DNA of 64,000 nucleotides from Lacibacter luteus (GTDB taxonomy: Bacteria > Bacteroidota > Bacteroidia > Chitinophagales > Chitinophagaceae), in NCBI RefSeq assembly GCF_004118265.1, contig NZ_SDHW01000003.1, positions 248,001 to 312,000 on the forward strand. Direction: 5' to 3'. Within the stretch, counting starts at the first letter, position 1. Each line of letters opens with the position of its first letter. The notes under the pieces were generated by a model. That model saw only the letters and a program-made list of their open reading frames with translations, was not told the DNA's origin and did no database searches. Both the position numbers and the translations under genes were made by a program. This document shows positions 12,841 to 25,703 of the stretch, one piece after another.

Positions 12841-14343
12841 TTAGTGTTTAAAATGTCGCATGCCGGTGATCACCATTGCAAGATCGTTCTGCTTGCAATA
12901 TTCGATCGAATCATTATCACGGATAGAACCACCAGGCTGAATAAATGCAACAATACCTGCTGCATGTCCTAACTGCACACAATCATTGAACGGGAAGAAA
13001 GCATCACTCGCCATGACTGCTCCATTGAGATCGAAGTTGAATTGTTTTGCTTTTTCAACTGACTGACGCAATGAATCGATACGGCTTGTTTGTCCGCAAC
13101 CTTTGCCCACCAGTTGTTTGTTCTTCACCAATGCAATGGCATTTGATTTTAAATGTTTGCACACAAGGTTGGCAAAAGCAAGATCTTCTTTCTCGGCCGC
13201 AGTTGTTTCTCTGTCACCAGCTTCTTTCCACTCGGTGTAATTGCCTTCATCTAATCCCTGCACCAACACACCATTCAAAATAGATTTATATTGCTCTTTT
13301 ACTTTTGGTTGTGCTTTCAACTGTAATAAGATGCGGTTCTTTTTCGATTTCAATACTTCCAATGCATCAGCAGCATAAGAAGGAGCGATCAATACTTCAA
13401 AGAAAATTTCGTTGATGGCATCTGCAGTTGCTTTATCAATTTCGCCATTGCAAACCAATACACCACCAAATGCACTTTCATTATCACCTGCGAGAGCAGT
13501 ATCCCAACTGTCTTTCACCGTTGCACGTTGTGCTACACCACATACATTGGTATGTTTGATGATAGCAAAAGTTGTATCTGTAAATTCTTTGATGAGTTGC
13601 ACCGCTGCATCCACATCAACCAGATTATTATAAGAAAGTTCTTTACCATTTAATTGGTCGAACAATTCACCAAGGTTGCCGAAGAAACGTGCAGTCTGAT
13701 GAGGGTTCTCACCATAACGCATGATCTTTTCTTCTTTGTTGAAAGGCGTTTCAACAGCCGATTGGTGGAAGTAATTAGAGATGGCAGTATCGTAAGCTGT
13801 ACACACATCAAATGCTTTGATGGCAAATGCACGACGTTGCTCATAACTTGTTTCACCATTTTGTTCACGCAGGATATTTTCCAATACAGCATATTCTTTT
13901 TTCGCTGCCAATACCACAACATCTTTATGATTTTTTGCACCGGCACGGATCATCGATGGTCCGCCGATATCAATTTTTTCAATGATCGCTTTTTCATCGG
14001 TAGTTGAAGCAACGGTTTCTTCAAACGGATAAAGATCAACGATCACCAGATCCATTTCAGGAATATTGTATTGCTTCATTTCAGCTAAATGCTGTTCATC
14101 ATCACGCTTGCCGAGAATGCCACCGAATACCGAAGGATGCAATGTCTTTACACGACCACCCAAAATAGAAGGGTAGCTGGTTAAATTTTCAACAGGCACT
14201 ACAGGCACACCAAGTTGCTCAATAAATTGCTGTGTACCGCCGGTAGAATAAATGGTTACATTTTGCTCGTGCAGGAGCTTTACCAATGAATCAAGTCCGT
14301 CTTTGTAAAAAACTGAGATGAGTGCCGATTGAATTTTCTTCAT
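12841..14343 (-). CDS. purH: Bifunctional AICAR formyltransferase / IMP cyclohydrolase
   Basis: 500 residues from the ATG at 14343 (MKKIQSALISVFYKDG); an 18-residue upstream extension in frame is not family-like. PurH catalyses the last two steps of IMP synthesis. The N-terminal MGS-like cyclohydrolase domain (about 1-190) contains YSTGGTQQFI, GRVKTLHPSVFGG and VDLYPFEET. The C-terminal transformylase domain contains MRYGENPHQTARFF, ELSYNNLVD and the substrate-binding KHTNVCGVA, ending QPGGSIRDNDSI. A minus-strand TACCTTTG (14395-14402) lies about 50 bases upstream. purH stands apart from other purine genes here. Confidence 0.96.
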   Translation of the reverse strand: MKKIQSALISVFYKDGLDSLVKLLHEQNVTIYSTGGTQQFIEQLGVPVVPVENLTSYPSILGGRVKTLHPSVFGGILGKRDDEQHLAEMKQYNIPEMDLVIVDLYPFEETVASTTDEKAIIEKIDIGGPSMIRAGAKNHKDVVVLAAKKEYAVLENILREQNGETSYEQRRAFAIKAFDVCTAYDTAISNYFHQSAVETPFNKEEKIMRYGENPHQTARFFGNLGELFDQLNGKELSYNNLVDVDAAVQLIKEFTDTTFAIIKHTNVCGVAQRATVKDSWDTALAGDNESAFGGVLVCNGEIDKATADAINEIFFEVLIAPSYAADALEVLKSKKNRILLQLKAQPKVKEQYKSILNGVLVQGLDEGNYTEWKEAGDRETTAAEKEDLAFANLVCKHLKSNAIALVKNKQLVGKGCGQTSRIDSLRQSVEKAKQFNFDLNGAVMASDAFFPFNDCVQLGHAAGIVAFIQPGGSIRDNDSIEYCKQNDLAMVITGMRHFKH

Positions 14344-14394
14344 AACAAGGAGAGAATTTTTTGCCACAGAGGTGGCGTTCTGTTTTAGAAGCCG

Positions 14395-14402
14395 CAAAGG
14401 TA
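14395..14402 (-). promoter_or_regulatory. TAnnTTTG -7 element of purH
   Basis: Minus-strand TACCTTTG, placing the transcript start about 45 bases upstream of the purH ATG. It lies in the short gap after comEC and gives purH its own promoter. Confidence 0.5.
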
Positions 14403-17252: not shown

Positions 17253-17294
17253 AATAAATGGTCTGACGGCCTAAGGGCCGTACCGACCAAAAAA

Positions 17295-17317
17295 AACTCC
17301 GCAACAAGTGCGGAGTT
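17295..17317 (-). terminator. Terminator of the carB C-terminal gene
   Basis: Stem AACTCCGCA / TGCGGAGTT with loop ACAAG. On the minus strand it is followed by a run of T (complement of A 17289-17296). Canonical intrinsic terminator six bases beyond the stop codon. Confidence 0.9.
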
Positions 17318-17323
17318 CGAAAT

Positions 17324-18517
17324 TTATTTACTGAGATACATACTTCTGTCTTTATACAACTGACGGAAGTAAGGATCACGGAGATTTTTAATAAAGCGGA
17401 TGGCTTCACCGGTACTCTTCATTTCTGGCCCGAGCTCTTTGTTTACATTCGGGAATTTGCTGAAGCTGAACACAGGTTCTTTAATAGCATAACCGGTAAG
17501 CTTTTTCTCGAATGTGAAATCGGTGAGTTTGTTTACACCCATCATTACTTTGGTAGCAACGTTGAGGTAAGGGATCTGGTATGCTTTTGCAATGAACGGT
17601 GTGGTACGGCTTGCACGTGGGTTGGCTTCGATCACAAACACTTTACCATCTTTAATGGCAAACTGGATGTTGATGAGACCTTGTATTTTCAATGCTTTCG
17701 CAATCTTCTTTGCATACTCTTCCATGGTTGCAACGATCATGGGCGTGAGGTTGAACTCAGGCAACACCGCATGACTATCGCCACTGTGAATACCGGCCGG
17801 TTCAATATGTTCCATTACACCCATTACGTGGAAATTTTCACCATCGTAGATAGCATCAATTTCAGCTTCCTGGCAGCGATCGAGGAAGTGATCAATGAGG
17901 ATCTTATTACCGGGCAGGTGTTTGATGAGACTCAATACTGCACTTTCCAATTCTGTTTCGTTGATAACAATTCGCATCCTTTGACCCCCCAATACATAGC
18001 TGGGGCGAACAAGCACCGGATAACCTACTTCTTTTGCCACTTCAATAGCATCATCGGTAGTATAAGCCGTACCATATTTTGGATAAGGAATCTCGAGTTC
18101 TTTCAACAGATCGCTGAAACGGCCACGGTCTTCGGCAATATCCATACTGTCGAACGAAGAACCGATGATGCGGATTCCTTTTTCGTGCAGACGTTTTGCC
18201 AGTTTAAGGGCTGTTTGTCCACCCAACTGAACGATAACACCATAAGGTTGTTCCAGTTCAATAATTTCCCAGAGATGTTCCCAGTTAACCGGCTCGAAAT
18301 ACAGCTTATCGGCCATATCGAAGTCGGTACTTACGGTTTCGGGGTTACAGTTCACCATGATCGCCTCGTAGCCACATTCTTTGATGGCGAGCAGACCATG
18401 TACGCAGCAGTAATCAAATTCAATACCCTGACCGATTCGGTTGGGACCACTACCGAGAACAATAATTTTTTTACGTTGAGATGGAATGGATTCGTTGTGA
18501 AGGATCGTATTTGCCAT
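17324..18517 (-). CDS. carB: Carbamoyl-phosphate synthase large subunit, C-terminal half (separate gene)
   Basis: 397 residues from the ATG at 18517 (MANTILHNESIPSQRKK); a nine-residue extension to a TTG is ignored. It corresponds to about residues 554-936 of E. coli CarB, the carbamoyl-phosphate-forming synthetase half. Motifs: GSGPNRIGQGIEFDYCC, VNCNPETVSTDFD, QLGGQTALKLAK, RPSYVLGGQRM and EANPRASRTTPFIAKA. The allosteric MGS-like domain is absent, as is usual in this phylum. The N-terminal half is a separate gene at 24033-25679. This half has its own TACCTTTG promoter element and terminator. All visible catalytic-loop motifs are intact, so it should assemble in trans with the other half. 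Confidence 0.93.
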   Translation of the reverse strand: MANTILHNESIPSQRKKIIVLGSGPNRIGQGIEFDYCCVHGLLAIKECGYEAIMVNCNPETVSTDFDMADKLYFEPVNWEHLWEIIELEQPYGVIVQLGGQTALKLAKRLHEKGIRIIGSSFDSMDIAEDRGRFSDLLKELEIPYPKYGTAYTTDDAIEVAKEVGYPVLVRPSYVLGGQRMRIVINETELESAVLSLIKHLPGNKILIDHFLDRCQEAEIDAIYDGENFHVMGVMEHIEPAGIHSGDSHAVLPEFNLTPMIVATMEEYAKKIAKALKIQGLINIQFAIKDGKVFVIEANPRASRTTPFIAKAYQIPYLNVATKVMMGVNKLTDFTFEKKLTGYAIKEPVFSFSKFPNVNKELGPEMKSTGEAIRFIKNLRDPYFRQLYKDRSMYLSK

Positions 18518-18524
18518 TGCGGTG

Positions 18525-18532
18525 CAAAGGTA
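18525..18532 (-). promoter_or_regulatory. TAnnTTTG -7 element of the carB C-terminal gene
   Basis: Minus-strand TACCTTTG, seven bases before the ATG at 18517 and downstream of the terminator of the preceding gene. It supports independent transcription of this half. Confidence 0.55.
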
Positions 18533-18579
18533 GGGGTGTGGCAAAAATTTTCAGGGATTTTTTCGGGCAAAATTTGACG

Positions 18580-18613
18580 AAAAAACTAACAGGCATGAGC
18601 GGGATGCCTGTTA
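18580..18613 (-). terminator. Terminator ending the carbamoyltransferase cassette
   Basis: Perfect ten-base arms TAACAGGCAT / ATGCCTGTTA (18587-18596, 18604-18613), followed on the minus strand by six T. The stop codon of the membrane-protein gene (18611-18613) is part of the stem. It insulates the cassette from the carB C-terminal gene. Confidence 0.9.
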
Positions 18614-20185
18614 ATGATATGTCTTGACCTGGTAGAGGCTTATTCCTTGCTTAACAGCGACAGGATCAGATTCAATAAATGCTGCGAGGCGTGGAAAAAG
18701 GTAAGAAGTAGAGGGTGTGAGCAGAATATAATCCGGACGATGTTGATAAATAGTATTCAAGCGATCCTGTTGTGAAGCTTTGTTTGAAAAGAAAAGGGTT
18801 ACCTGCTCTTTGCGTTGATCAGCATCGTTCACCCAGTAAACAGGATAAACTGCAGCTACAACCTTGCCTCCAAGTGCAGGAATAAAGAGACCCGTTTGCA
18901 GATCTGTTAAAACGATAGATGATCTTTTTTCCAAAATCGGCTCAAGAAAGGACAATGCATCCGCTTTTGCAGAATGACCTGCTTGCTGAAAAGAAGTTGA
19001 GTCGGAAGCTATTTGTCTTCTCTCATTATTAAGAGACCGGAATATATTTTTTGTTTGAAAAAGATATGGCAGCGTGAGAATGAAAATTAATGTAAACCAA
19101 ATTGCTTTGGCTTTTCTGATAAGCAATAAATTTTTTACAAGCAACAAATGAATTACAATAACAGCAAATGCAAGCATTCGTCCTAAGCCGTATGATTTTG
19201 TATAAAACCCAACAGCGTAAATCAATAACAATAATAACAGGCTGACATATAAAGGCCATTCTTTTTTCCAGTTCAGCGATTGTGTGAATAAAACGAGAAC
19301 AGGCAATAAAAAAACGGGAAATATTTTCCAGGCTATATGTTGGTAAAGTACCAGGCTGTCGGAATGAAATTGATTTCCACTTTCTGCATAGGTAATAAGT
19401 GAGAAGAAGGGATAATATGGCCAGAATCCTGCAAGAGTAAGTGCAAGTGCTCCGGCTCCAACGAGATAGGTTGTTTTTTTAAAAATGAACTGTTGATTGA
19501 ATTTTTGTTGCTGTAAAATGCTCAGATAAACACAAAGGATAAGTGAGCCAGTGAAAAGAACAGTTAAAGGATGTGTGAGACCAATGATAAAAAGCAAACA
19601 ACTCAGGACAACAGTTAAGGCAAGCTCTTTTCTGACCGATGAAGAAACTATCAGTAACTGTTTTGAAACAGCTGCAGCGTATACCGAACAAATAAATGCA
19701 AATGTTGATGGGTACGATAGCGTAAGTGTAAAAGAACTGAAATGAAAGAATGAGCTGTAAAGAGGAGCTTGTGATCCCCAGAAAAAAAGAGTTAAAATAA
19801 GAAGCAATAAAAAAGCCTTTGCATGATCTTTCTTTTCAGAAATAAACATGGTTGCCAATAAGTAAACTGCTGAGAAAAACAACAACAGGTTAGCGATCAT
19901 GGCTAAGTTGAGTAACGTAGAAACCTGGATGCCGGTTAGTGAAATAATTGCACCGAGAAAAACAGAATAGGGCGAAAAAAAAGCATGTGGTACATCAACA
20001 TTTAAAATTGGATGCCCAGGTTGTTGAAGATGTAATGATAATTCTTTTATTACAGCGTTATGTTCCCAGTAATCGCCTGTCCATTGCGACCGTTCAATGA
20101 AGAATAATTGCAACAGGAATAATAACCCACAAACAATGATCGAAGCGATTGCCCATGGATTAAAATGTTGTTTGATTCTTTTCAT
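18611..20185 (-). CDS. Large polytopic membrane protein, GT-C glycosyltransferase-like
   Basis: 524 residues from the ATG at 20185 (MKRIKQHFNPWAIAS). Eleven or so hydrophobic helices lie between residues 10 and 390, with a first loop containing QWTGDYWEHNAVIKEL and then a C-terminal soluble region. A long first periplasmic loop with acidic residues followed by many helices is the layout of GT-C glycosyltransferases (PMT/ArnT-like), but I cannot point to a definite catalytic motif. It is the last gene of the cassette between the two carB genes. A role in building or modifying a surface glycan is inferred from its neighbours only. Confidence 0.6.
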   Translation of the reverse strand: MKRIKQHFNPWAIASIIVCGLLFLLQLFFIERSQWTGDYWEHNAVIKELSLHLQQPGHPILNVDVPHAFFSPYSVFLGAIISLTGIQVSTLLNLAMIANLLLFFSAVYLLATMFISEKKDHAKAFLLLLILTLFFWGSQAPLYSSFFHFSSFTLTLSYPSTFAFICSVYAAAVSKQLLIVSSSVRKELALTVVLSCLLFIIGLTHPLTVLFTGSLILCVYLSILQQQKFNQQFIFKKTTYLVGAGALALTLAGFWPYYPFFSLITYAESGNQFHSDSLVLYQHIAWKIFPVFLLPVLVLFTQSLNWKKEWPLYVSLLLLLLIYAVGFYTKSYGLGRMLAFAVIVIHLLLVKNLLLIRKAKAIWFTLIFILTLPYLFQTKNIFRSLNNERRQIASDSTSFQQAGHSAKADALSFLEPILEKRSSIVLTDLQTGLFIPALGGKVVAAVYPVYWVNDADQRKEQVTLFFSNKASQQDRLNTIYQHRPDYILLTPSTSYLFPRLAAFIESDPVAVKQGISLYQVKTYH

Positions 20186-20258
20186 TGGTATGATTGATTT
20201 TTCAATCAACAAGCGGCAATTTAGTTTGTAAAAATTTGTGAGATTTTAATAAAAGTAT

Positions 20259-20615
20259 CTACCAAGGGTTTTGTAAATCAGAAGCTTGATATCGTTTGTT
20301 TCTAATTTGAAAGTAAGAATTAATACTGTGGTTGTTGGGAAGGTTTTTCTTGCCAAAAAGCTTGCGCAGAAAAGCGATAGGTGTGAGAATGACAAAGAAT
20401 ATTAAAAATAATAGAATGCGGCTGTTGATATAACCCAATACTTTGGCCAGCATCAACCAGGCCCAATGAATTATTTCACCAAACGGAGAAATTGCAAAAC
20501 CAAGAACTGAAATTGCAACGGGCGCAAGTAGCCAGTAATTCTTAAAAACCAAAAATAGTATTGCAAAGCCGGTGGCTATTACTAGCAGTGAAGTATGTTT
20601 TTGTTTCCACCTCAT
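20259..20615 (-). CDS. SxtJ-family membrane protein
   Basis: 118 residues from the ATG at 20615. Two or three hydrophobic segments (about 9-45 and 60-85) are followed by a basic C-terminal tail containing LRKLFGKKN and ending in an aromatic residue. The sequence and position match the SxtJ family, named from the saxitoxin cluster. These proteins typically sit beside a carbamoyltransferase and a DUF5989 protein. Its ATG overlaps the TAA of the DUF5989 gene by one base (TAATG), so the two are translationally coupled. Function is unknown; a membrane partner of the carbamoyltransferase is inferred. Confidence 0.8.
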   Translation of the reverse strand: MRWKQKHTSLLVIATGFAILFLVFKNYWLLAPVAISVLGFAISPFGEIIHWAWLMLAKVLGYINSRILLFLIFFVILTPIAFLRKLFGKKNLPNNHSINSYFQIRNKRYQASDLQNPW

Positions 20616-20767
20616 TAAAAAAGTGAATAGATAAAAGGTGCAGCAGCAGAACTGCCACCGAAAATAAGCAAGGCTCCCAGTAATAACATAACAATGATGA
20701 TTGGTGCTAACCACCATTTTTTACGCTCTTTTAAAAAGGCCCACATGTCTCTTAAGAATTCAAACAT
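20615..20767 (-). CDS. DUF5989-family 50-residue membrane protein
   Basis: 50 codons, starting MFEFLRDMWAFLKERKKWWL followed by one hydrophobic helix (PIIIVMLLLGALLIF) and a short Ala-rich end. This is the full length and pattern of DUF5989, a small protein regularly found between a carbamoyltransferase and an SxtJ protein. It starts 13 bases after the carbamoyltransferase stop and overlaps the sxtJ start. No biochemical role is established. It would be missed by ORF callers with a 60-codon limit. Confidence 0.88.
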   Translation of the reverse strand: MFEFLRDMWAFLKERKKWWLAPIIIVMLLLGALLIFGGSSAAAPFIYSLF

Positions 20768-20780
20768 AGTTGTTACAAAG

Positions 20781-22646
20781 TTAATCAGCCTTCAGTGTTT
20801 TCTTCCAATCATCTTTTTCTTTCCATTGCGGCTGATCGGTTTTGCTGAAAAGATAATTTTCAATGACAAGATAATCCATTTCGGTACGCATGAAACATTG
20901 ATAAGCTTCCTGCGGCGTACAAACAACCGGTTCGCCACGAACATTGAAACTGGTGTTGATCAACACTGCACAATCTGTATGTTGTTTAAATGCACTGATG
21001 AGCGAATGAAAAGCAGGATTGATTTCCTTGTGCACTGTTTGTACACGAGCTGAATAATCAATATGTGTAACAGCTGGCAAACTGCTACGTTGGAAATACA
21101 GCTTATCCGTTAAATTCAATTGGTGATAATTATCCGGGACCGGATGCTGCAATGTTTGCTTCACCGGTTGTACCAATAACATATACGGTGATGCAGTGTT
21201 CAACTCAAAATAATTCTGCACATCTTCAGCAAGAACAGCAGGGGCAAAGGGACGAAAGCCTTCCCTGTATTTGATCTTCAGATTTAGTTTCTTCTGCATT
21301 TCAGGATTACGTGGATCGGCAAGAATACTCCTGTTGCCCAATGCACGGGGACCAAACTCCATTCTGCCCTGGAACCAACCAATTACATTTCCATTGCTGA
21401 TATGTGCTGCAACTGTTTTATTTAATTCATCTCTGGTGGTGAATGTTGTTGGAATGGCTTTGTATTGTTGAATAACTGTTTCAATTTCTTCAGCTGAAAA
21501 AGATGGGCCTAGATACGAACCTTTCATGGCATCCATTGCGGTTGCAATGCTTCGTTCTTTTTCAAAATAAATATGATGCGCTGCCAATGCGGCACCAACA
21601 GCGCCACCGGCATCGCCACTGGCAGGCTGAATGAACATATTTTCAAACAAATGACTGTTTTGCAGTTTGCCATTTGCTACACAGTTCAATGCCACACCAC
21701 CCGATAAACAGATATTCTTTGCACCCGTAATTGCTTTTGCATGTGCAGCAAGCTTCAACACAATTTCTTCGGTTACCTGTTGAATAGCGAGTGCTAGATT
21801 ACAATGCCGTTGTGTGAGTTCTTCTTCTTCTTCGGTTCTTCGTTTAAAACCAAACAGCGTTTCAAACTTTTTATCCTTTACCATACGCAGACCAACTGCA
21901 TAATTGAAATACTGCTGATCTAAATACACCGATCCGTCATCATAAATTTTTACCAGCTTCTCTTTAATGATGGAAACAAATTGTTTTGTTTGTTCTGCCG
22001 ATGGATCGCCGTAAGGAGCGAGCCCCATCAACTTGTATTCACCGCTGTTTACTTTAAAACCTAAGTAGTAAGTAAACGCAGAATATAACAAGCCAACAGA
22101 GTGAGGGAAGTTGAGTTGTTTTAATATTTCAATATTTTTCCCCTTGCCTTTGCAGATAGTTGTCGTTGCCCATTCGCCCACACCATCAATGGTGAGTATC
22201 GCTGCATCTTCAAAAGGCGATGGATAAAATGCCGACGCTGCATGGCTGAGATGATGTTCAGGAAACAACAACTTCAGTTTCTTTTTATCGTAGAGTTGAA
22301 TTTTCTTCAACTCATCACGAATCTGTTTTTTGAGAAACAATTTTTCATTTAACCATACAGGCATAGCCATTAAGAAAGATGCAAAACCTTTTGGTGCAAA
22401 TGCGTAATAGGTTTCAAGCAAGCGTTCGAATTTCAGTAAAGGCTTATCGTAAAACACAACAGCTTCCAGTTCATCAATAGAAATACCTGCTTCTCTTAAA
22501 CAATAATCAACTGCTTTGGCGGGAAACCCGGCATCATGTTTCTTTCGGCTAAAACGCTCTTCCTGTGCAGCGGCAATGATCTCACCGTTTTTCAGGATAG
22601 CAGCAGCAGAATCATGGTAAAAGGCTGAGATGCCGAGAATGTACAT
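20781..22646 (-). CDS. O-carbamoyltransferase (NodU/TobZ/CmcH family)
   Basis: 621 residues from the ATG at 22646 (MYILGISAFYHDSAAAIL); the in-frame extension upstream is not conserved. The N-terminal Kae1-like domain shows FPEHHLSHAASAF, LTIDGVGEWAT, VNSGEYKLMGLAPYG and CLSGGVALNCVANGK. The C-terminal YrdC-like domain shows GRMEFGPRALGNRSILADPR and INTSFNVRGEPVV. Family enzymes use ATP and carbamoyl phosphate to make a carbamoyl adenylate and transfer the carbamoyl group to a hydroxyl. The acceptor here is unknown; a cell-surface sugar is likely given the membrane and SGNH neighbours. It sits between the two halves of carB, whose product is its donor. Confidence 0.93.
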   Translation of the reverse strand: MYILGISAFYHDSAAAILKNGEIIAAAQEERFSRKKHDAGFPAKAVDYCLREAGISIDELEAVVFYDKPLLKFERLLETYYAFAPKGFASFLMAMPVWLNEKLFLKKQIRDELKKIQLYDKKKLKLLFPEHHLSHAASAFYPSPFEDAAILTIDGVGEWATTTICKGKGKNIEILKQLNFPHSVGLLYSAFTYYLGFKVNSGEYKLMGLAPYGDPSAEQTKQFVSIIKEKLVKIYDDGSVYLDQQYFNYAVGLRMVKDKKFETLFGFKRRTEEEEELTQRHCNLALAIQQVTEEIVLKLAAHAKAITGAKNICLSGGVALNCVANGKLQNSHLFENMFIQPASGDAGGAVGAALAAHHIYFEKERSIATAMDAMKGSYLGPSFSAEEIETVIQQYKAIPTTFTTRDELNKTVAAHISNGNVIGWFQGRMEFGPRALGNRSILADPRNPEMQKKLNLKIKYREGFRPFAPAVLAEDVQNYFELNTASPYMLLVQPVKQTLQHPVPDNYHQLNLTDKLYFQRSSLPAVTHIDYSARVQTVHKEINPAFHSLISAFKQHTDCAVLINTSFNVRGEPVVCTPQEAYQCFMRTEMDYLVIENYLFSKTDQPQWKEKDDWKKTLKAD

Positions 22647-22673
22647 GGCTGCAAAATAAGCGATTTGATAGAA

Positions 22674-22755
22674 ACACGGATGACACTGATTTAGGCAGAT
22701 GATAAGGGATTTAATCTGTGCCAATCAGCTTCATCTGTGTTATCTGTGACTCTAT
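22674..22755 (+). repeat. 82-base dispersed repeat, copy B
   Basis: Directly repeated at 23858-23939 without gaps; about 67 of 82 positions agree by hand count. It contains CACTGATTTA, TTTAATCTGTG and GTTATCTGTGACTCTAT. It overlaps the last 14 codons and stop of the SGNH gene and reaches to 27 bases before the carbamoyltransferase ATG. Confidence 0.85.
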
Positions 22756-23805
22756 TATCTCTGCAACTTTCGCCGCTCCTTGTTTATTAAAATGAATGAA
22801 ATCGTAGTAATAAACCGTGTTCTTCGGCATCTGTTTCGCCAGGTCAATAACAGTTGCTTGATTGCTGAATGAACGGACAACATTGTTATACTCTTCCAAC
22901 ACCTGTTCCTGCAACAAATTGTTTTTGCCGGGATTACTTTCATGAAATTTCAGATCCATCTGTACGCCACTTGCACTGTCTTTAAACGCACCATATAATG
23001 ACGGTTGCGTTAATAGGATAGGTTGAATATGATTGGCTTTGCAGAGCGTAACAATCTCCTGCAACCTTGATTGGTAACCACTGAGATAATTCTTTTGCCT
23101 GGCAATTGTTTCCTGTATGTAAACCGGAGTATAACTTGTATCCTTCAGTGTTGTAAAGTCAATATCCTTATGGATCAAACCCTTTTTGTAAGCCGAACGG
23201 ATATTGTACAGTTGAAAAACAGTCGCACCGATCTCGGTTTTATTCAACAATGATTTAAAAAATGCTTTTACCGAACTGTACTGCAATTTGTTTTCATTCA
23301 TCAAATCAAACTGTTCAGGCTTTTCTGTTTCAACGTCGTTTACACCGGTGAGTAGTACAACATATTTCGGCTTCAGTTGAATGATATACTCCTTCATCAA
23401 CAACAAATGCCCAAAGCTTGAATGCCCATCAATACCGGCATTGTTCACCCATACATCCGGAATGGAATCTTTCAATTCTTCGCCCAACAAAAAAGGCCAT
23501 GTGGTGCTGTCGCTCAAAAATCTGCATTCAGTTGTGCTGCCACCAACCGTGATGATCGAATTTAGTTTTGAAATACTATCGGTTGGCATTGGTCCACGAA
23601 AACCCAATGCATTTCTGCTGTAAGCAATTTTTGCATCTAGTTGTTTGATCCATTGGTTATCGAACACTGTTTGCTGATTGGCTGGTAACACTAACTTTCC
23701 ATGTTTGGTGAAATTGGTGAAAGGGTTATAAATACGCAACACAATTTCACACAGCACAAGTGCTACAAGCAAACCAAAGAATAATGCTTTCAGGTTTTTG
23801 ATCAT
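22711..23805 (-). CDS. Membrane-anchored SGNH/GDSL-like hydrolase
   Basis: 364 residues. One N-terminal hydrophobic anchor (about 5-24) is followed by an SGNH-type domain. Block I is ITVGGSTTECR with the nucleophile Ser90, block III is LLTGVNDVE with the Asn near 156, and the catalytic pair is in YDFIHFNKQG (D335, H338). A periplasmic esterase or acyltransferase acting on surface polymers is plausible; the substrate is unknown. It is the first gene of the cassette between the carB genes. Direct repeats flank it, and the 3' repeat supplies its last 14 residues, so its C-terminus may not be native. Confidence 0.82.
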   Translation of the reverse strand: MIKNLKALFFGLLVALVLCEIVLRIYNPFTNFTKHGKLVLPANQQTVFDNQWIKQLDAKIAYSRNALGFRGPMPTDSISKLNSIITVGGSTTECRFLSDSTTWPFLLGEELKDSIPDVWVNNAGIDGHSSFGHLLLMKEYIIQLKPKYVVLLTGVNDVETEKPEQFDLMNENKLQYSSVKAFFKSLLNKTEIGATVFQLYNIRSAYKKGLIHKDIDFTTLKDTSYTPVYIQETIARQKNYLSGYQSRLQEIVTLCKANHIQPILLTQPSLYGAFKDSASGVQMDLKFHESNPGKNNLLQEQVLEEYNNVVRSFSNQATVIDLAKQMPKNTVYYYDFIHFNKQGAAKVAEIIESQITQMKLIGTD

Positions 23806-23857
23806 GGTGCTGTAAGATAAATACAGTTTGTGATAGCTGTAAATAAATACAATAGAT

Positions 23858-23939
23858 ACACAGATGCCACTGATTTATGCTAATTGTAACTGATTTAATC
23901 TGTGCTCATCCGTTACATCCGTGTTATCTGTGACTCTAT
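23858..23939 (+). repeat. 82-base dispersed repeat, copy C
   Basis: Second copy of the repeat at 22674-22755, same orientation, 53 bases upstream of the SGNH start. It continues into a CACGGAAGCACAGAATACACAG tract resembling the start of copy A at about 16561. It may have spread by the same route as other ATCTGTG-type repeats. Confidence 0.85.
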
Positions 23940-23972
23940 TTTTTGCCACGGAAGCACAGAATACACAGAAAA

Positions 23973-23999
23973 GAAAAAGCAGCGGAATAAACCACTGCT
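23973..23999 (-). terminator. Terminator of the carB N-terminal gene
   Basis: Minus-strand stem AGCAGTGG / CCGCTGCT (one G-U pair) with a six-base loop, followed by TTTTT. It lies 33 bases after the stop and gives the N-terminal half its own 3' end before the SGNH gene. Confidence 0.75.
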
Positions 24000-24032
24000 C
24001 TTTTTATCTTTTTCACTTTTTTAAACTCTTAG

Positions 24033-25679
24033 TTATTCAAAAGTCGAATAGAAATACGGCGTCTTCGCTTCAAATTCAGCGCTGCAGGTATCTACCATTT
24101 TGTACACACGGGTAATACCCCAAGCTTTACGCTTTTCGTAGAGCTCATCTTCGCTTGCATCTTCTTTCATAATGCGGCAGATTTGCTCATCACCAAAGCC
24201 CATGCGTTTTGCTTCACGCAACAAAGCTTCCGGTAATGTTTTCATATCATGCTTTGCCAGTTCTTTTTCCATGTTCACAATATCCTGAATCTGGTAAATG
24301 AACCAACGGTCAATCTTGGTTGCTTCAACAATCGTCTTCACACTCACACCCGCCATCAACGCATCTTTAATACGGAAAATGCGATCCCATTTCGGAACCT
24401 TGATGTATTCGATCAACTCTTCTGCATGTTTTACACTTTGTCCGTAGTAGCCAAGACCAACTGCATTGTTTTCTAAACTCTGACAAGCTTTTTGTACTGC
24501 TTCCGTAAAGCTGCGACCAATACTCATCACTTCACCCACACTCTTCATCTGTAAACCCAAACGGTCATCAGCACCTTTGAACTTGTCGAAGTTCCAACGA
24601 GGCATTTTTACAATCACATAATCCAATGCAGGCTCGAAGTATGCAGAAGTAGTTTGCGTGATCTGGTTTTTCAATTCATCCAATGTGTAACCAATCGCCA
24701 GTTTCGCAGCAATTTTTGCAATAGGATAACCGGTTGCTTTACTTGCCAAGGCAGATGAACGGCTTACACGTGGGTTGATCTCAACCGAAATGATGTCTTC
24801 GTTCTCAGGATTCAAAGCGAACTGTACGTTACAACCACCGGCGAAGTTGCCGAGGCTACGCATCATTTTGATGGCCATGTTACGCATGTTCTGGAAAGCT
24901 GTATCGCTCAAGGTCATGGCAGGCGCAACAGTAATACTGTCGCCGGTATGCACACCCATAGGATCGAAGTTCTCAACCGTACAAATAATTACTACGTTAT
25001 CATTCTTATCACGTAACAGTTCCAATTCATATTCTTTCCAGCCAAGCAATGCTTTTTCAACCAGTACTTCGTGGATAGGACTTGCCTGCAACCCTCTTTC
25101 AAGAGCAGCATCCAGTTCGTCTTTCGTATTCACAAAACCACCACCGGTACCACCCAGCGTAAACGAAGGACGGATCACCAACGGCACACCAATTTCCTGT
25201 GCAAATTCTTTACCCTCAAGCAACGAGTTGGCCACCTTTGAAGGTGCCACGCCAATACCGATCTGGATCATTAGCTGGCGGAATTTCTCCCTGTCTTCAG
25301 CAGTATCGATCGCCTTCACATCCACGCCAATCATTTGCACGTTGAATTTTTCCCAAACACCCAGCTCATCCGCTTCTTTACAAAGATTGAGGGCTGTTTG
25401 TCCACCCATGGTAGGCAAAACCGCATTGATCTGTGGATTTTCTTCCAGGATCTGTTCAATACTTTCAACCGTAAGAGGCAGGAGATATACACGATCAGCC
25501 ATCATCGGGTCGGTCATGATGGTGGCGGGGTTACTGTTGATCAGAATCACTTCAATCCCTTCTTCACGAAGGCTGCGGGCTGCTTGCGAACCCGAATAAT
25601 CAAACTCACAGGCCTGGCCAATCACAATGGGGCCGCTGCCTACTATCAGCACACTGGTTATCGAATTATCTTTTGGCAT
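24033..25679 (-). CDS. carB: Carbamoyl-phosphate synthase large subunit, N-terminal half (separate gene)
   Basis: 548 residues, matching about residues 1-553 of E. coli CarB. It comprises the carboxyphosphate-forming ATP-grasp half (about 1-400) and the oligomerisation domain (about 400-548). Motifs: [56 protein letters not shown] and [20 protein letters not shown]. It ends [12 protein letters not shown] and then a stop, exactly where full-length CarB proteins enter the linker to the second half. The rest of the protein is encoded 5.5 kb away at 17324-18517. A promoter element (TACTTTTG) and a terminator make it a complete unit. No carA is in the window. Confidence 0.95.
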
Positions 25680-25695: not shown

Positions 25696-25703
25696 CAAAA
25701 GTA
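25696..25703 (-). promoter_or_regulatory. TAnnTTTG -7 element of the carB N-terminal gene
   Basis: Minus-strand TACTTTTG, 16 bases before the ATG at 25679. No matching -33 TTG at the normal distance was found, so this is moderate evidence only. Confidence 0.45.

Follow-up and report, generated by a model that had tools for sequence, protein, structure and literature searches.

The carB locus of Lacibacter luteus

The window analysed here is a stretch of 64,000 nucleotides (nt) from Lacibacter luteus (Chitinophagaceae; contig NZ_SDHW01000003.1, positions 248,001 to 312,000), in which carB, the gene for the large subunit of carbamoyl phosphate synthetase, is present in two pieces on the minus strand. 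The N-terminal half (CarB-N, 24033..25679, 548 aa) holds the carboxy-phosphate synthetase and oligomerisation domains (Pfam CPSase_L_D1, D2 and D3), and the C-terminal half (CarB-C, 17324..18517, 397 aa from the ATG at 18517, or 406 aa from an alternative TTG start at 18544) holds the carbamoyl-phosphate synthetase domain (Pfam CPSase_L_D1 and D2). The halves keep the same orientation and order, as an earlier, sequence-only reading of this DNA had it, and are separated by 5515 nt. They align to residues 1-548 and 555-924 of E. coli CarB, which puts the break at the 553/554 linker, also as first read. In order of transcription the locus consists of CarB-N, an SGNH hydrolase, a carbamoyltransferase, a DUF5989 protein, an SxtJ-family protein, a 533-aa protein and CarB-C. 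The genes in between are called the cassette below, and the carbamoyltransferase/SGNH/DUF5989/SxtJ set the module; other genomes, genera, families and loci carry our handles in G, g, f and L.

Each half carries the preATP-grasp and ATP-grasp set of the CarB family (TIGR01369), and the oligomerisation domain CPSase_L_D3 covers residues 425-503 of CarB-N; the family trait of a single polypeptide fails in the window, where there are two genes. The sequence-only reading had seen no motif lost, and this stands for the catalytic residues checked, of which 20/20 are retained (10/10 per half), but not for the MGS-like domain. CarB-C has no Pfam match to that domain and ends near position 933 of a model of 1052 positions. 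Among the listed matches to unsplit CarB from the family and the order, most end at about 930-955 of the model, and two read-through ones at 995, so that the loss of the domain is older than the split. PurH, from a family with an MGS-like domain, lies three genes past the MGS-less carB (window 12841-14397); in many fused relatives, too, it is close to carB.

Both halves appear to have stayed functional, as had been proposed: the ratios of nonsynonymous to synonymous substitution rates (dN/dS), at 0.01-0.05 overall, indicate that both are under purifying selection. The values were 0.025-0.047 for CarB-N (4 comparisons with relatives) and 0.011-0.040 for CarB-C (6 comparisons, with dS above 2, hence saturated, in two), five further comparisons being left out for length differences and one yielding no dS. 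Among named relatives Lacibacter cauensis matches best, with a CarB-N that shares 97% identity with that of the window. A sequencing error, an assembly artefact or a pseudogene backed by a functional copy elsewhere would be suggested by the fragmentary matches in G033, G049 and G056, which resemble frameshifts or contig breaks, and by a second, unsplit carB that two Lacibacter genomes (G011 and G012) do carry. For the window genome this explanation is refuted and has next to no probability, since the genus agrees on the split (13/13 genomes), selection is purifying and no carB beyond the two pieces was found at E<=1e-60 in the 5.07 Mb genome (28 contigs, 99.95% complete), nor the separate full-length copy that would have counted against the earlier reading. 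The single full carA match over the cut-off lies on a different contig.

Promoter-like -7 boxes precede both halves on the minus strand: TACTTTTG at 25696..25703, 24 nt upstream of the CarB-N start, and TACCTTTG at 18525..18532, 15 nt upstream of the CarB-C start. TAnnTTTG is the form that PMC9723704 gives for the sigma-A -7 box of flavobacteria, and before CarB-C it stands in the same place in all 13 Lacibacter genomes with both halves. Terminator-like hairpins, also on the minus strand, lie directly 3' of CarB-N (23974..24003, of the intrinsic kind, from a scan and with a fold z of -3.2), at the end of the insert (18585..18615, scan only) and 3' of CarB-C (17294..17318, scan only). The scan gave 12 sites in the region against an average of 8.3 in shuffles, so that single hairpin matches are weak; those 3' of CarB-N fold better than shuffles in the window, G005, G007 and G010, the four that were folded. 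From these signals we infer that the carB region of the window would comprise three separate transcription units.

The split within the genus Lacibacter

Fourteen genomes of the genus were searched, that of the window included. CarB is split in all 13 in which both pieces were found, and G008 shows the C piece only. In G005 the halves lie 134 nt apart at the same locus, with the hairpin and promoter box and without the cassette; in G004 some 30 kb lie between them and they are on opposite strands, and in G013 they are 1.3 Mb apart, with cassette genes remaining beside CarB-N. A carbamoyltransferase lies near a CarB half in 11/14 genomes, G007 has the SGNH hydrolase and the membrane-like protein only, and no cassette genes were found within the fetched stretch of G004 and G005. 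G005 branches after G007 and G004 in a poorly searched quick tree (support 89), and deeper still in another.

The second carB of G011 and G012 (L129:5387-8200 and L131:3488-6301) is distant, MGS-less and 69% identical to CarB-N; it adjoins biotin carboxylase and biotin-carrier genes (Pfam) in G011, and open reading frames (ORFs) of equal lengths in G012. A reversed set of glycosyltransferase and UDP-galactopyranose mutase genes lies between the cassette and CarB-C in G002 (L117:10401-13742), and G006 has ORFs of the same lengths as this set.

Stages of the split across the Chitinophagaceae

The family search covered 394 genomes, 390 of them with a carB match and 252 with one over the full-length cut-off, a number that overcounts intact genes since splits with an in-frame stop or a short gap are read through. 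Unsplit carB was found outside the family, elsewhere in the order, and also within it in Ferruginibacter and Niastella, where it often occupies the same locus; this bears out the ancestral single gene that had been supposed. Many unsplit genes share their surroundings, with Prx and M23 on one side and ComEC and PurH on the other. The linker, measured between the places of CarB-N residue 548 and CarB-C residue 17, is 2 aa long in 11/15 genes of the order from outside the family (5-9 in the remaining ones) and 2-31 aa long in 52 fused Chitinophagaceae genes, a majority of which have 8 aa or more.

The splits differ in the distance between the halves. Some have a stop alone, with 9-58 nt from the CarB-N stop to the CarB-C start (8 rows of g67). 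Ten rows of g67 and g99 have a short spacer of 339-790 nt between the halves, mostly with small genes, and short gaps also occur in G428 (165 nt) and G024 (111 nt). Pfam assigns the gap genes of G171, G300 and G432 to ORF6N, PIN and DUF3368, respectively; other gap genes of g67 and g99 merely resemble these or were outside the Pfam scan. Finally, most of the 29 remaining split genomes, each from its own genus, have dispersed halves, far apart or on different contigs. ORF6N genes (Pfam for L180) or similar-looking ones stand between the carB halves of several g99 genomes, in carB orientation (L180:820-1470, L181:3217-3639, L183:3219-3683 and L186:819-1418).

A -7 box within 45 nt of the C-half start was found in 9/9 near, 39/47 far, 1/13 adjacent and 0/8 stop-only rows, which share ancestry and hence are not independent, at a mononucleotide-shuffle rate of 1.8%. 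The rows of G063, G339, G400 and g108 were classed as far, their halves coming from separately fetched loci. A promoter box already present in fused linkers was considered and set aside, the occurrence there (9/67 within 120 nt) being weak. Among 79 split rows (two of them duplicates), the residues past the conserved CarB-N end number none in 39, one in 26 and 4-13 in 14. The long tails belong to all six g99 splits (4-8 linker residues), four g67 splits, G024 and the far-apart G014, G126 and G106 (4-6 residues), and many adjacent g67 splits have none. In G396 (g7) a second full-length CarB (C4:787489-790644) matches model positions 1-1052, the MGS region included, and the usual short one lies elsewhere. 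Among the titles listed in searches of open PMC, none dealt with a split carB in Chitinophagaceae.

Number of fused/split changes

The full tree search used 118 rows, after 28 names had been removed as near-duplicates or long branches. With some of its nodes weak, the tree gives 13 parsimony changes between fused and split, and its 15 all-split clades would amount to 15 fissions if re-fusion never happens. On these gene trees, the carB linker appears to have been broken repeatedly in Chitinophagaceae. This search replaced a quick tree (142 rows, 14 changes), on which holding Lacibacter together with the scattered-half genera gave a likelihood 93 units higher. In the full tree Lacibacter is separate from a clade of 29 scattered-half genomes (98.6/94). 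A single carB clade for the cassette-bearing lineages was rejected, at a cost of 460 log units and a P value of 5.6e-6 in the approximately unbiased test (p-AU); the constrained search ran for 30 rounds, with G004 and G005 kept in Lacibacter.

Genes between the halves

The first gene of the insert encodes the SGNH/GDSL hydrolase (22711..23805, minus strand; PF13472). It is followed, on the same strand, by a carbamoyltransferase of the NodU/TobZ kind (20781..22646; PF02543 and PF16861), whose ORF opens at 22724 and whose likely ATG at 22646 is deduced from where relatives start matching. Its relatives in the PDB are TobZ, GdmN and 7xb6, and it has the only PF02543 match over the cut-off in the window genome. 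Then come the 50-aa DUF5989 protein (20615..20767, minus strand; PF19451, E 4.5e-25), a small membrane protein of the SxtJ family (20259..20615, minus strand; PF19588), the start of which overlaps the DUF5989 stop, and the 533-aa protein (18611..20212, minus strand; GC 0.371), which has no Pfam match and is judged from its sequence to be a membrane protein. The GC content is 0.409 for the carbamoyltransferase, 0.392 for the SGNH hydrolase and 0.366-0.373 for the other insert genes, compared with 0.406 for the window; the first two are not marked as foreign by this measure.

The same kind of module is present at carB junctions of other lineages, which rules out its being an oddity of Lacibacter. 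A carbamoyltransferase and an SGNH hydrolase occupy the gap in three g108 genomes (along with other genes, including an SxtJ-family protein, by Pfam in one genome), in G063 and in G400, and the SGNH hydrolase alone occupies it in G339. The small gap protein of G063 is without a Pfam match, and for the one in G400 there is a 32% local match only. In five more g108 genomes, with the halves 76-109 kb apart, the SGNH and/or transferase set is near the halves. In this genus a carbamoyltransferase lies near a half in 8/9 split genomes (one by a partial match about 5 kb away); the split G418 has no module within about 6 kb. Near fused carB the module was found in 0/3 g108 genomes, a fourth fused fragment being outside the check. 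G400 and G339 are the only split genomes among the 13 sampled each of g57 and g58, and their fetched sisters (7 and 4) are all unbroken and without the module.

The carbamoyltransferase of the window shares 66% identity with its counterpart in G063, 61-64% with those of g108 and 57% with that of G400, and likewise 57% with plasmid-borne ones of Sinorhizobium and Gemmatirosa. At 57-66% identity to the window enzyme, the inserts of the other lineages are either ancient or from different sources. In a tree of 31 rows the carB-linked carbamoyltransferases form one clade (92/85), from a sample without other Bacteroidota carbamoyltransferases. Replacement of carB from a cassette-bearing donor was rejected: in 11/13 alignment bins the carB of G339 is closest, alone or in a tie, to the fused sisters G299 and G387, the exceptions being bins 100-200 and the junction bin 500-550 (86%, vs 88% for G022). 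Bin 500-550 of G400 is slightly nearer to some cassette bearers, so that short stretches at the junction may have been exchanged in G339 and G400.

A junction that merely tolerates insertions, with the repeated module a coincidence or the module common in the family, could account for these observations; we hold this to be possible, though somewhat short of an even chance. The unrelated ORF6N, PIN and DUF3368 genes that also occupy the gap, the window hairpins that separate three units and the 57-66% identities just given all agree with it. A carbamoyltransferase is nonetheless found in four separate split lineages, and a carbamoyltransferase or SGNH hydrolase near 0/49 fused carB loci (from 47 distinct records; 45 of the loci had 4 kb or more to one side) and 0/50 named N-only loci (some with short flanks). 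Likewise, the module is near scattered halves in 0/32 genomes of 31 genera outside g1 and g108 (some at contig ends, and overlapping the N-only loci), and beside the split carB in 0/9 g67 and g99 genomes with long flanks. The spacing from CarB-N to the next gene speaks against mere tolerance as well: it is 3 nt in G063 and 2 nt in G400, with a 1-nt overlap in G288 and G329 (automatic start choice), and so close a spacing probably means that CarB-N is coupled to the next gene in these genomes. Lacibacter has the terminator-like hairpin between CarB-N and the next gene.

A likely consumer of carbamoyl phosphate has thus come to lie at the junction repeatedly, whether through co-expression or as an insertion-prone site. 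In a stronger version, the fission junction would serve convergently, in four lineages or more, as the docking site of a surface-glycan module that consumes carbamoyl phosphate, and selection for co-expression would have helped to fix the fission or even caused it; this is tentative and to our mind rather improbable. The same doubt attaches to its corollary, a producer-consumer unit with translational coupling, judged from the spacing, in G063 and G400 and, in two g108 genomes, with coupling to the SGNH gene.

Origin of the two-piece subunit

We regard it as quite probable that the two-piece, MGS-less large subunit arose by fission of a single carB at the linker, which has recurred in the Chitinophagaceae and needs no insertion. 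The order of the steps is suggested by the states coexisting in the family: the linker between the synthetase halves would lengthen, a stop codon would appear with re-initiation at a downstream ATG, the spacer would tolerate inserted genes, and the C-half would then gain a separate promoter and disperse freely. Bacteroidetes are described in PMC6847099 as being without Shine-Dalgarno sites, and their absence may make re-initiation cheap. CarB-N would make carboxy-phosphate and take ammonia from CarA, CarB-C would phosphorylate carbamate, and the two pieces would most likely assemble in trans with CarA into the usual enzyme. The Lacibacter module sits in the spacer, probably as its own transcription unit, and modules of the same kind arrived there in other lineages too, plausibly as consumers of carbamoyl phosphate.

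Several points weigh against this account. Parsimony cannot separate fission from re-fusion, and g99 is intermixed; a single origin of the split for Lacibacter and the scattered-half clade was not rejected (p-AU 0.34), and if the split is so shared it would be older than the cassette. The split co-occurs with the cassette or the SGNH hydrolase in g108, G063, G400 and G339. The empty junction of G005 could reflect a later loss of the cassette, so that a cassette-first order would be possible for Lacibacter, and the assembly in trans is reasoned from the known enzyme. The linker relic on CarB-N also fails as a clean clock of the age of the split, the far-apart G014, G126 and G106 having kept their tails.

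The sequence-only reading had proposed that carB was opened by an insertion, with both halves still functional. On this model the cassette broke up an undivided carB in an ancestor of Lacibacter, and G004 and G005 would have lost it later. The carbamoyltransferase near a half in most of the genus agrees with this, as do the module in 8/9 split vs 0/3 fused g108 genomes and the sole splits G400 and G339 with their fused, module-less sisters; since split and insert go together there against fused sisters, an insertion as the cause is conceivable in g108, g57, g58 and Lacibacter. The claim was nevertheless not established, and we consider it unlikely. The cassette-free G005 has the CarB-N hairpin and the same C-half promoter box, the halves of G004 and G013 are far apart, and other lineages are split without any insert, be it the 32 scattered-half genomes or the g67 splits that have a stop and 9-58 nt only; the shared origin with the cassette-free scattered-half clade, not rejected above, points the same way. 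The earlier reading had added that the same split with different intervening genes throughout the family would argue against the insertion; such a pattern is largely what the family presents, yet the module recurs at several junctions.

Where the gene of an essential enzyme has undergone fission, as a rule only the end state is seen. In Chitinophagaceae fused genes, in-frame stops, short spacers, inserts, new promoter boxes and dispersal coexist, sometimes within one genus, which makes the order and cost of the fission steps testable. The cassette is not shown to be the cause of the split; what surprises is that a likely consumer of carbamoyl phosphate recurs at the junction. If the repeated carbamoyltransferase inserts are functional, a biosynthetic enzyme would have been cut open to host a pathway that consumes its product.

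Comparison with known systems

A split CarB is itself already known, from Aquifex and Methanothermobacter, and the halves of E. coli CarB are termed independently folded in PMC6245113; gene fission is cited as far rarer than fusion in PMC4009401. According to PMC3087415, CarB of Methanothermobacter thermautotrophicus is encoded by two genes, MTH996 and MTH997, and carAB of M. marburgensis is given two adjacent numbers there, so that its CarB reads as unsplit. M. thermautotrophicus, which has the split large subunit in common with the window, is archaeal. CarB of M. jannaschii is split as well, with the break nearer residue 480.

In the same GTDB phylum, two CarB pieces per genome were found in f31, f33, f34, f36, f45, f47, f55 and f63. 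In 9/12 genomes of these other families, the break differs from that of the window in lying near model positions 474-493, in the oligomerisation-domain region, with a C piece that reaches 1049-1052 and so keeps the MGS region; of the remaining three, G553 is maybe one frame, G643 ends at 923 and G639 is fragmentary. The loci of the other-family splits near 474-493 are L292-L313. Genomes of the same order or class outside the family gave one carB match each, and none in one case (read-through possible).

Like the NodU, TobZ and GdmN O-carbamoyltransferases, the enzyme of the window has Carbam_trans_N and Carbam_trans_C domains; it would transfer a carbamoyl group to a hydroxyl of a glycan or of another acceptor. 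A set of carbamoyltransferase, SxtJ and DUF5989 genes comparable to that of the window lies near polysaccharide genes on a Paludisphaera plasmid; unlike in the window, no carB is annotated within 5 kb of it.

A parallel is Aquifex aeolicus, the split large subunit of which had been cited in the sequence-only reading and is borne out by PMC6022934, where CPS.A, CPS.B and GLN are separate genes and each isolated half can catalyse both partial reactions. As in A. aeolicus, the large subunit of the window is in two genes, with the break between the synthetase halves, and the glutaminase is encoded separately. The window enzyme is without the MGS-like domain, and its fission is recurrent within one family, beside sisters in which the gene is still fused.

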